DNA from: an uncultured Methanomicrobiales archaeon
Lineage (GTDB): Archaea > Halobacteriota > Methanomicrobia > Methanomicrobiales > Methanospirillaceae
Length of the DNA stretch: 64,000 nt
Direction: 5' to 3'
NCBI GenBank assembly: GCA_903832665.1
Contig: CAILCG010000004.1
Coordinates: forward strand, 1-64,000
In this document: positions 8,157-40,369 of the stretch, one piece after another
Numbering within the stretch: the first letter of the stretch is position 1
How the letters are laid out: every line of letters starts with the position of its first letter
Program-made: the position numbers and the translations under genes
The notes under the pieces: generated by a model
Database searches by the model: none
Seen by the model: only the letters and a program-made list of their open reading frames with translations
Told to the model about the DNA's origin: nothing

Positions 8157-8292
8157 GATGTACCGGTTGGACTATACAGAAAATAAGGTGATAGGGTAAC
8201 CGGTGAGGAACGAAAACACCTGGCTGGATGCACGGCTTTTTTGGGATACATCGCCAATCAGGTACCGGTATACCTAAAAGCGGGAGCATTTC

Positions 8293-9477
8293 ATGTCAAT
8301 TCACTTCGCGGACAGGATTAAACGTGCACCGGTCTCGTTTCTCTCAGAACTGTTTTCCGTATCGAATAACCCCTCCATTATCTCGTTTGCCGGTGGACTG
8401 CCGTCATCGGCACTGATCGACACCGCAGGTATTGCACAGGCCACCCGTCAGGTTATGGAAGATGATGCCCGGAGTGCGCTCCAGTACACTACTACGGACG
8501 GGTACCTGCCCCTGAGGGAATTTATCGCAGACCGTTATCGCACCCGGCTCGGACTGCACGCAACGGCAGAAGAGATCCAGATCGTTAACGGATCCCAGCA
8601 GTGTCTTGACCAGTTTGCCAAAATTTTTCTCAATGCTGGCGACCATGTGGGAATGGAGCGGCCAGGGTACCTTGGCGCCATTGAAGCCTTTTCGCTCTAT
8701 GAACCGGTCATCGATACCGTTCCGCTGGAAGATGATGGCCTGGATCTTGGTGCATTCGAACAGTTTGTCAAAAAACCCAACGCGAAGTTCTTCTACGGCA
8801 TCCCCAATTCCTAGAATCCGTCCGGCAGGACATACTCGCAGGAGAAACGTAAGGCAATCGCTGATATTCTCCAAAAAAGTGACACCGTCTTTTATGAAGA
8901 TGACGCTTTCGGGGAACTCTTCTTTGACACAAAACAACGCATTCCGGTAACAAAGTACCTTCCTGACCAAAGCGTTATATCCGGTTCATTCTCCAAGATC
9001 ATCGCGCCCGGCATGAGGATCGGCTGGATCTTTGCACCCCCGGAGATCCTTGCCCCGTTCAATGTCGTCAAGCAGGCAGCCGACCTGCATTCCAATTTCC
9101 TCTGCCAGAAGATCCTGCACCGGTACCTGACCACGCATGATCTTGATGCCCATATTCGCCACGTTACCCATGAGTATGGCAGGAAGTGCCGGCTGATGTG
9201 CGATCTGCTCGATGACCAGTTGCCGGAACTTTCTCACACAACTCCCGAAGGGGGTATGTTCCTGATGGCAACCCTCCCGCCCGGCATCTCTTCCCGCAGG
9301 GTCTTTGATGAGGGTGTGAAGCAAAAAGTTGCCGTGCTCCCGGGCATGCCATTTTATGTAGATGGGGGTGGTGAGGATACCATACGACTGAACTTCTCGA
9401 ATCCGGATGAGGAGATGATACCGCTCGGTATCTCGCGGCTTGCCAGTGTGATAAAAGGCCTGGTTTCCGGAAATTAA
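8293..9477 (+). pseudogene. PLP aminotransferase (fold type I, LysN/AroAT-like) interrupted by an in-frame TAG
   Basis: Two open stretches in the same frame (8293-8811 and 8815-9477) are separated only by TAG at 8812-8814. Read through, they give a 394-residue class I aminotransferase of normal length. The N-terminus has SFAGGLPSSALID and LQYTTTDGYLPLREFI. The stop falls in the substrate/PLP motif: FYGIPNS-stop-NPSGRTYS, where relatives have Gln (QNPxG). The PLP lysine is in SGSFSKIIAPGMRIGW, and the C-terminal domain ends with IRLNFSNPDEEMIPLGI. A CAG-to-TAG transition explains it. Readings are a recent nonsense mutation, a sequence error, or amber read-through. The family makes or uses branched, aromatic or 2-aminoadipate-type amino acids; the substrate is unknown. 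Confidence 0.85.
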
Positions 9478-21372: not shown

Positions 21373-21407
21373 ATAAGTAATAGCTCCAGAGAGGTTTGAG
21401 ACCGATA

Positions 21408-22679
21408 ATGGCAGAAGAACGGGAGATGGACGACGCGCGAAAGCGTTACGAGTTCAAGAAGGCGCTCGAGAAGCTCGAGTTACAGCAGGGTGACGGGACG
21501 GAACTTATCACGATCTACATTCCCCCTGACAAGCAGATCTACGATGTTACCAATCAGCTCAAGGACGAGTTTGGACAGTGCGCCAACATCAAGAGCAAGC
21601 AGACCAAAACCAACGTGCAGAGTGCCATCTCTTCCATCCTCTCCCGGCTTAAATACTATAAGCGCCCGCCTCTGCATGGGCTTGCAGTGTTCTGCGGGAC
21701 GGTCAAAACCTATGGCGATCGCACGGATCTCCAGTGCACGATCGTAGAGCCCCCCGAACCCCTCAACCTCTATATGTACCGGTGCAGCTCGAACTTCGAG
21801 CTTGAGCCGCTCAAACAGATGCTCGAAGAGAAGTCCATCTATGGGCTTCTTGTTCTTGATCGTAGGGAAGCCTATTGGGGCTTTTTACGCGGTAACCGGA
21901 TCGAACCTGTCGGGGGAACGACCTCAACCGTCCCGGGAAAGACGCGCAAAGGTGGTCAGTCCGCTGCCCGTTTCGGGCGTCTCAGGGAGATTGCGATTGC
22001 CGAGTTTTATACCCGAATCGGGGAACGAGCCAGTGCCATATTCCTTGCCGAGAAGGATTACTTCGAGCGGTTTAAGGGGGTACTCATCGGAGGTCCGAGC
22101 CCGACCAAAGAGGAGTTCGAAGCCGGGAACTTCCTCCACCACGAAGTCCAGAAACGGATCATCGGGATCTATGATGTAGCCTATACCAACGAAGACGGGT
22201 TGTCCGAGCTGGTGGACGCGGCAAAGGATGCTCTCAAAGGCATGGGCGTCATCAAGGAAAAAGCGTTCATGGAGAGGTTCTTACGGGAACTCGTCAAGGA
22301 TGCCAGTATTGCCGCCTATGGGGAAGAGAGTATCAGGAAAAATCTTGAACTTGGGGCAGTCGATATCCTGCTCCTCTCGGCAAATCTCCGCAAATCCCGG
22401 CTCCGGATAAAATGTCAGAACTGTGATTTCACCGATGAGAAGACGGTTCACATCGATGCGGGAAAAACGGTACGGGATATCCCTCTCGGTGCATGTCCGA
22501 AATGTACGGCCCCACTCATTCTCGAAGAGGAGATCGATATTGTGGATGAACTGACCAAACTCGCTGAACAGAGCAGTGCCAAGGTCGAGCTCATCTCCGA
22601 TGATTTTGAAGAGGGATCGATCCTCTTCTCCGCATTTGGCGGGATTGCCGCAATACTGCGCTACAGGACGGGATGCTGA
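21408..22679 (+). CDS. prf1: Peptide chain release factor aRF1
   Basis: The 423-residue protein ends translation at stop codons. NIKS (CANIKSKQTK, near residue 60) is the stop-codon reading motif, and GGQ in KTRKGGQSAARF near 183 is the hydrolysis motif. The C-terminal domain has a zinc-like CxxC pair (CQNC, CPKC). ATG 21408 was taken over ATG 21396, since MAEEREMDDAR follows a normal leader. Its stop overlaps the argS start. Confidence 0.96.
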   Translation: MAEEREMDDARKRYEFKKALEKLELQQGDGTELITIYIPPDKQIYDVTNQLKDEFGQCANIKSKQTKTNVQSAISSILSRLKYYKRPPLHGLAVFCGTVKTYGDRTDLQCTIVEPPEPLNLYMYRCSSNFELEPLKQMLEEKSIYGLLVLDRREAYWGFLRGNRIEPVGGTTSTVPGKTRKGGQSAARFGRLREIAIAEFYTRIGERASAIFLAEKDYFERFKGVLIGGPSPTKEEFEAGNFLHHEVQKRIIGIYDVAYTNEDGLSELVDAAKDALKGMGVIKEKAFMERFLRELVKDASIAAYGEESIRKNLELGAVDILLLSANLRKSRLRIKCQNCDFTDEKTVHIDAGKTVRDIPLGACPKCTAPLILEEEIDIVDELTKLAEQSSAKVELISDDFEEGSILFSAFGGIAAILRYRTGC

Positions 22680-38005: not shown

Positions 38006-39205
38006 ATGGAATGTGTCGTGCTCGCTGCAGGGGAGGGGAAGAGAATGCGTCCGCTCACGGGCAAGCGTCCGAAAGTTATGCTCCCCCTGGCTAACCGTCC
38101 TATGATGGAGCACCTTGTAATTGCAGCCCGGGATGCAGGAATCACCGACTTTATTTTTGTTGTTGGGTATGGTGAACGGGAAATCCGGAAGCATTTTGGG
38201 GATGGATCCGCGTGGGGGATTCATATCAATTATGCCCCGCAGCGGCACCAGCACGGTACTGCCGACGCGGTTCAATCAGCCCGGGATTACATCACCGGAG
38301 AGTTCCTCGTCATGAATGGGGATATGATCATTAAAAGAGCCGATATTGCAGGTCTCTGCAGGCAAAAAACCCCTTGCATGAGCATAAGTACGACCGATCA
38401 TCCAGGTGATTTCGGGGTTGTGATGGTCGATAATGGTTACGTCAGCTCACTGGAGGAAAAATCCCCGAACCCTAAATCCAATATTATCAATGCAGGAGCT
38501 TATCTCTTCCCATCCAATATTTTTGAGCATTTGGATAAAGTCAAAACATCCATGAGGGGGGAACTCGAACTCACAGATGCCCTTATGGGATTCATTGCCG
38601 ATAAAAAATTATCCGCCTATTCACTCTCATGTTGGATGGATGTCGGCTATCCCTGGGACATGCTTGAAGCAAATGCCAAACTGATGAAATCAATTATCAC
38701 ACAAAATGCCGGAACCATTGAAGAGGGGGTATCGATACAAGGATCCGTCATAATCGGTGAGGGGAGTGTTGTAAAGTCGGGTACATACATCGAAGGCCCA
38801 TGTATCATAGGTAAAAATTGTAGGATCGGCCCCCATGCATATATTCGTGGATCCACGAGCATTGGCGACGATTGTCATATCGGGCATTGTTCTGAATTGA
38901 AAAATTCTATTATTATGAGCGGGACAAAAATTCCCCATTTTAATTACATCGGGGACTCGGTAATCGCCGGTGGGTGTAATTTTGGGGCAGGCACCAAAGT
39001 TGCAAATCTGCGCCTTGATCATGCCGATGTCAGGGTATGCGGAAAAGAGACCCGGCGGAAAAAGTTCGGTGCGGTTGTTGGAGAGAATGTTCAATTCGGT
39101 ATCAACTGCTCTATCAATGTAGGGACTCTGATAGGGAGCAACGCCCAGTTTGCGCCCAATTCCTGTGTTGAAGGATGTATTGGAGATAATGCAGTGATAA
39201 GGTAG
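38006..39205 (+). CDS. glmU: Bifunctional sugar-1-phosphate uridylyl/acetyltransferase, GlmU-like
   Basis: The 399-residue protein has an N-terminal nucleotidyltransferase (VLAAGEGKRMRPLTGKRPK, then HGTADAVQSA and NGDMII) and a C-terminal left-handed beta-helix of hexapeptide repeats (from about residue 245). The acyltransferase end carries NFGAGTKVANLRLDHADV and ETRRKKFGAVVGENV, as in archaeal GlmU. It should acetylate GlcN-1-P and add UMP. It is 18 bases after glmM. Confidence 0.88.
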   Translation: MECVVLAAGEGKRMRPLTGKRPKVMLPLANRPMMEHLVIAARDAGITDFIFVVGYGEREIRKHFGDGSAWGIHINYAPQRHQHGTADAVQSARDYITGEFLVMNGDMIIKRADIAGLCRQKTPCMSISTTDHPGDFGVVMVDNGYVSSLEEKSPNPKSNIINAGAYLFPSNIFEHLDKVKTSMRGELELTDALMGFIADKKLSAYSLSCWMDVGYPWDMLEANAKLMKSIITQNAGTIEEGVSIQGSVIIGEGSVVKSGTYIEGPCIIGKNCRIGPHAYIRGSTSIGDDCHIGHCSELKNSIIMSGTKIPHFNYIGDSVIAGGCNFGAGTKVANLRLDHADVRVCGKETRRKKFGAVVGENVQFGINCSINVGTLIGSNAQFAPNSCVEGCIGDNAVIR

Positions 39206-39208
39206 GTA

Positions 39209-40369
39209 ATGAGCATGCAGGCAGTCATATTAGCAGCAGGAGAGGGAGTCCGGGTTCGTCCGTTGACAAAAAGCCGGCCAAAAGCAATGATTCCAGTAGC
39301 CAACCGTCCTATCATCGAATACGTCATAGATTCGTTGGTAAAAAATGGGATCCGTGATATTGTTGTCGTAGTTGGTTACCGGAAAGAACAGGTAACCCGG
39401 TTTTTAAATCAGCTTGATGTGTCTATAGATGTGGTGGTCCAAGATAAACAGCTGGGAACAGCACACGCCCTTCAGTGTGCCGAATCAAAAATCCACGGGG
39501 ATTTTCTTCTTCTCCCTGGGGATAATTATATCGATCCGCAATCTCTTGGCCGGATTAAAGGGATTCACAATGCTGTTCTTGTAAAAGAACATTCAAATCC
39601 TTCGAATTTCGGCGTTGTGCTGTTGAAAGACGGGTATGTATCTTCGATTATTGAAAAACCCGCGCACGCACCCAGTTTTCTGGTCAGTACAGGTATTTAC
39701 TCCCTGACAAAAGACTTTTTTTCTCACATCAAGGGAAACAACATGACTGATTCGGTTTCTGCAATGATTCAAAACGGAGTACCGGTTCGTGCCCTTGCTG
39801 CGGATGACTGGGAGGATGCAATATTTGCATGGGATCTTCTCAAAATGAACCGGCGCAGGCTGAGCAATCTTACTGCCGGACGGAACGGAACCGTGAGCCG
39901 GCAGACAACAATCGTTGGCGCAGTAAGTATTGGAAAAGGTTCGATAATTGGTCCGAATACTGTGATAACCGGACCTGTAATCATTGGTGAAGATTGTACA
40001 ATTGGATCAAATTGCTGCATCATGCCCAACACCAGTATCGGCTCACGGGTCAGCATTGAACCATTTACCCTTATTGGGAATATTTTGGTTATGGACGATA
40101 CGGTTATAGGATCGCATTCGCGTATCGTCGATGCAGTTATCGGAGAGCGTTGCACTCTTGCGGATCATACTTCCTGCAGCAAAGCACGCGGCCTGTTAGA
40201 AGTTGAAGGAGGTCTCATACGATCGGAATTTGGGGCAATCCTTGGGGATAATGTGATAAGCGGTCCTTTTACGCGATACCAGAATGGGATTGTGGGAAAT
40301 AATTCAAAAGTCGAGGGAAACGAGTCCGTAATATCCCGGAATATTCCGGATGGCTCAATGGTGATTTGA
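39209..40369 (+). CDS. Second GlmU-like nucleotidyltransferase
   Basis: The 386-residue protein begins QAVILAAGEGVRVRPLTKSRPK and has GTAHALQCAESKI and PGDNYIDP in the catalytic domain, then beta-helix repeats. The C-terminus (SKARGLLEVEGGLIRSEFGA) differs from the upstream protein, lacking the ETRRKK-type segment. It may handle another sugar, or only the uridylyl step. Start is 4 bases after the first glmU stop; GTG of glmS follows directly. Confidence 0.8.
   Translation: MSMQAVILAAGEGVRVRPLTKSRPKAMIPVANRPIIEYVIDSLVKNGIRDIVVVVGYRKEQVTRFLNQLDVSIDVVVQDKQLGTAHALQCAESKIHGDFLLLPGDNYIDPQSLGRIKGIHNAVLVKEHSNPSNFGVVLLKDGYVSSIIEKPAHAPSFLVSTGIYSLTKDFFSHIKGNNMTDSVSAMIQNGVPVRALAADDWEDAIFAWDLLKMNRRRLSNLTAGRNGTVSRQTTIVGAVSIGKGSIIGPNTVITGPVIIGEDCTIGSNCCIMPNTSIGSRVSIEPFTLIGNILVMDDTVIGSHSRIVDAVIGERCTLADHTSCSKARGLLEVEGGLIRSEFGAILGDNVISGPFTRYQNGIVGNNSKVEGNESVISRNIPDGSMVI

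Follow-up and report, generated by a model that had tools for sequence, protein, structure and literature searches.

The genome of what its relatives indicate to be a Methanoregula species carries an aminotransferase gene that is closed at a single codon by an in-frame TAG. Our analysis suggests that this TAG is probably a real and recent C-to-T nonsense mutation, which would have turned the codon for Gln174 into a stop in a non-essential gene of this Methanoregula strain or population. The gene lies in a stretch of 64,000 nucleotides, hereafter called the window (Table 1), within a 2.88-Mb draft assembly of 28 contigs that is 98.8% complete. The sequence-only reading had listed a recent nonsense mutation, a base-call error, and amber suppression as candidate explanations and had regarded pyrrolysine as unlikely; this list proved sound, with recent mutation as its likeliest entry. 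A literature search returned nothing specific on the case.

Table 1 Positions of the interrupted aminotransferase gene and related features in the window
Feature	Position	Strand	Remarks
Divergently oriented neighbor gene, 146 aa	7716..8156	-	Adjoins the same aminotransferase in genome G007, 91% identity
Shine–Dalgarno-like upstream stretch GGGAGCATTTC before the ATG	8277..8292	+	From alignment; common to relatives, intact here, changed in the G001 pseudogene
Interrupted aminotransferase gene, 394 codons	8293..9477	+	Predicted fold-type I PLP enzyme of the LysN / kynurenine-aminoadipate / archaeal aromatic aminotransferase group
Still translatable fragment, 173 residues, without YEDD and without the PLP lysine	8293..8814	+	PLP lysine is residue 235
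In-frame TAG, codon 174, immediately 5' of the codons for the PLP-binding motif NPSG	8812..8814	+	Gln in all relatives
Earliest possible restart codon downstream of the TAG, ATG at codon 241	9013..9477	+	Beyond PLP lysine 235
Archaeal release factor aRF1, intact	21396..22679	+	TIGR03676 match C4:21444-22670, 569.8 bits, no internal stop

In the aminotransferase frame, 173 codons precede the TAG, and 220 sense codons and a TAA follow it; the first of these counts stands as originally given, whereas the 221 codons previously assigned to the downstream part had included the final stop. No further stop or frameshift was found in the gene besides the TAG. When the TAG is read through, the NPSG motif, the YEDD motif at residue 201, and the SFSK motif with Lys235 are all intact, which agrees with the initial description of an otherwise intact gene with PLP motifs kept on either side of the lesion. 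A 394-codon frame with 85 to 89% identity to its relatives and a single closed codon is not a product of chance.

Sequence searches returned full-length matches to the 2-aminoadipate aminotransferase LysN of Thermus thermophilus (PDB 2egy and 2zp7; E = 1.2e-77 for 2egy) and to the archaeal structures 1x0m and 3aov, both kynurenine/aromatic aminotransferases of P. horikoshii, and 1wst, with E values down to 1e-77. Full-length homology and the presence of the NPxG and SxSK motifs in the read-through product both place the predicted enzyme in the fold-type I group. As no NCBIfam equivalog scored above its cut-off for this gene, we leave its substrate unnamed. In the FQNPTG motif of LysN, Gln173 occupies the position of the TAG, and the adjoining Asn174, as counted from the alignment, is the PLP-binding asparagine. 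Compared with LysN, the gene described here is a distant and TAG-interrupted relative.

Every other locus spanning the site, across about 50 distinct contigs (duplicates fetched from two collections were counted once), encodes Gln at the position of the TAG, confirming that the stop replaces a conserved Gln before NPSG. Among the codons displayed, CAG is used throughout, as had been proposed, apart from CAA in one locus. Likewise, the paralogue in the same genome has Gln at the site corresponding to codon 174. Orthologues in six Methanoregula genomes share 85 to 89% identity with the gene, and the nearest genomes, at about 89% protein identity, keep Gln at the site, which is a comparison above the strain level. 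The sense codon found here in all relatives marks the TAG as a premature stop, as in a nonsense pseudogene. The TGA or TAA codons near residues 391 to 392 in the Methanoculleus and G006 orthologues proved to be normal gene ends rather than lesions. Two further orthologues, L071 and G019:C113:2341-3454, matched in separate pieces and are perhaps broken too.

The selective history of the gene was estimated with a codon model fitted to ten orthologues with stop codons masked. Omega on the gene's own branch was 0.068 versus 0.095 in the background, a difference that was not significant, and amounted to 0.069 before the TAG and 0.061 after it. On the same branch, values above about 0.115 (interpolated) were rejected at the 5% level, and an omega of 1 was rejected with 2dlnL = 42.6. 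There was thus no excess of amino acid changes and no long period of relaxed selection, as in a recent pseudogene. Any neutral phase since the TAG arose is limited to a few per cent of the branch (about 2–7%, depending on the omega assumed for the earlier part). The Shine–Dalgarno-like stretch, still identical in kind to that of the relatives, likewise points to a young lesion. The aminotransferase gene was therefore subject to normal purifying selection until quite recently. The view that the mutation is very recent fits both the codon model and the recurrent loss of this gene among its relatives.

This loss is evident in several Methanoregula genomes. The orthologue of G001 (L019/L069, JAUSBW010000171.1) is the same gene at the corresponding location and is likewise broken by stops, here at codons 14, 102, and 230, with an omega of 0.31 (2dlnL = 18.6). 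It differs from the gene in the window in that its three stops are other ones, Gln is kept at position 174, selection is relaxed, and the upstream stretch is changed. The G001 orthologue is thus a real, older, and independently arisen pseudogene. Among 39 Methanoregula genomes, G015, G022, and G026 (90–97% complete) lack the gene and its closest paralogue alike; in G060 (98% complete), only the paralogue is present. These patterns show that the aminotransferase gene is expendable in Methanoregula.

Other broken genes are present in the host genome. A paralogue of about 50% identity at C16:143976-144882 (L126:5965-6930) has a 254-bp out-of-frame deletion between two copies of CTGCCG in addition to a Gln-to-TAG change, and is clearly dead; seven further long, stop-free PF00155 matches remain in the genome. 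In a MacB/LolD-type ABC ATPase gene (C23:67979-68671; L133:3977-4672), a family-wide look found a TAG in place of the invariant Gln that precedes LSGGQ. Four other conserved residues of this ATPase are altered too, compared with zero to six, mostly zero to two, in its relatives, and these extra departures suggest decay; an intact paralogue with 82% identity is located at C1:47130-47804. A scan for interior stops, covering about 16% of the genome, gave an apparent TGA in a papain-like gene and an apparent TAA in a von Willebrand-like gene (L142:18851 and L143:3970), both from the scan alone, without orthologue comparison. A plain hexamer scan yielded many antisense shadows, which were removed by requiring the best of six frames. 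Separately, the radical SAM match at C14:36713-37154 and the ABC ATPase match at C3:21817-22274 are each split over two frames, by frameshifts or assembly indels.

The type of lesion agrees with simple mutational expectation. Twenty one-transition routes lead to a stop in the aminotransferase gene; 14 of them produce TAG, and 13 of these start from Gln codons. With 13 of 20 such routes being Gln-to-TAG, a TAG at Gln is the expected and commonest nonsense outcome, and three genes with this change in one genome are therefore unsurprising.

If the C-to-T change at codon 174 is real, translation in the cell would stop at residue 173, ahead of the PLP lysine. No ATG, GTG, or TTG occurs between codons 174 and 241, and Lys235 sits after the TAG and before this first restart codon; a restart there consequently cannot rebuild the active site, and no active enzyme would be made. 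Without readthrough, the enzyme would be lost.

We considered whether a full-length enzyme might instead arise by suppression or readthrough of UAG, with Gln or another residue inserted. Three genes of this genome carry TAG at a conserved Gln, and purifying selection is just as strong downstream of the TAG as upstream. An absence of relaxed selection is equally expected under efficient suppression or a base error. However, no tRNA with a CTA anticodon was present among the 46 tRNA genes found, although the search could have overlooked a strongly deviant tRNA-Pyl. These 46 genes have ordinary anticodons, those of tRNA-Gln being ctg and ttg only; the intron-bearing tRNA-Met and tRNA-Tyr were resolved separately, and tRNA-Trp was not recovered, probably owing to an intron, so that the inventory is incomplete. 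The recommended whole-genome search for an amber-suppressor tRNA thus lent suppression no support. TAG is also not avoided as a terminator: of the 61 ORFs in the window, 8 close with it, as do 73 of the 560 coding ORFs sampled over 449 kb, and these include genes that naturally end there. The release factor aRF1, which normally reads UAG as stop, is intact. Two apparent read-through cases in the window dissolved on inspection, as 38006-40369 consists of two adjacent, apparently complete nucleotidyltransferase-like genes in the same frame with a TAG and a few bases between them, and 1116-2273 has its natural end after a membrane anchor. Recoding of Gln, which the three Gln-to-TAG genes had raised, was rejected on the ordinary TAG termination, the lack of a CTA tRNA, the signs of decay that both remaining TAG-bearing genes show, and the apparent interior TGA and TAA stops; TAG at Gln being the default mutational outcome also speaks against it. 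Suppression is accordingly very improbable, as is a low-level or undetected Gln-inserting form that keeps several TAG genes, such as the aminotransferase and the ABC ATPase, functional. That the TAG encodes pyrrolysine, as it does in some methanogens, is close to negligible. Pyrrolysine-coding methanogens of the Methanosarcina type likewise have in-frame TAG codons, but the present host has no PylS match above the cut-off in its 98.8%-complete genome (best 27.9 bits versus 178, a cut-off that one control genome passes), all relatives have Gln at this site, and TAG is an ordinary stop. Pyrrolysine is thereby refuted, save for a pylS in the 1–2% of the genome that the assembly lacks, and the earlier judgment on it is borne out.

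The 173-residue fragment, or the pair of fragments, might alternatively retain a function of its own, and the upstream fragment is indeed undecayed. The downstream part is just as undecayed, however, YEDD and the PLP lysine are both missing from the fragment, the stretch between codons 174 and 241 offers no start codon, and such a split occurs in no relative, making this option extremely unlikely. The main rival to a nonsense mutation is a base-call or consensus error at the TAG, or a minority base that entered a metagenome consensus, in which case the organism itself would carry an unbroken gene. The lesion is single, the own branch is without relaxed selection, the Shine–Dalgarno-like stretch is intact, and the assembly is a draft; in this one assembly, a consensus error would look just like a mutation. 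On the other hand, real-looking nonsense lesions occur elsewhere in the genome, in the paralogue with the 254-bp deletion and in the ABC gene with four departures, and true mutation is therefore frequent enough to be favored as the source. In a well-covered short-read consensus, substitution errors occur less often than such nonsense mutations. We regard an error as unlikely, and a real nonsense mutation that ends translation and costs the cell this enzyme as the probable explanation.

A lone TAG at a Gln codon in a conserved archaeal gene should thus be read with caution, being the default product of one C-to-T transition and not a sign of recoding. The aminotransferase pair would offer a modest example of a lineage in which both copies are being lost, the first of them clearly dead and the second newly broken, and this matches the losses elsewhere in Methanoregula.
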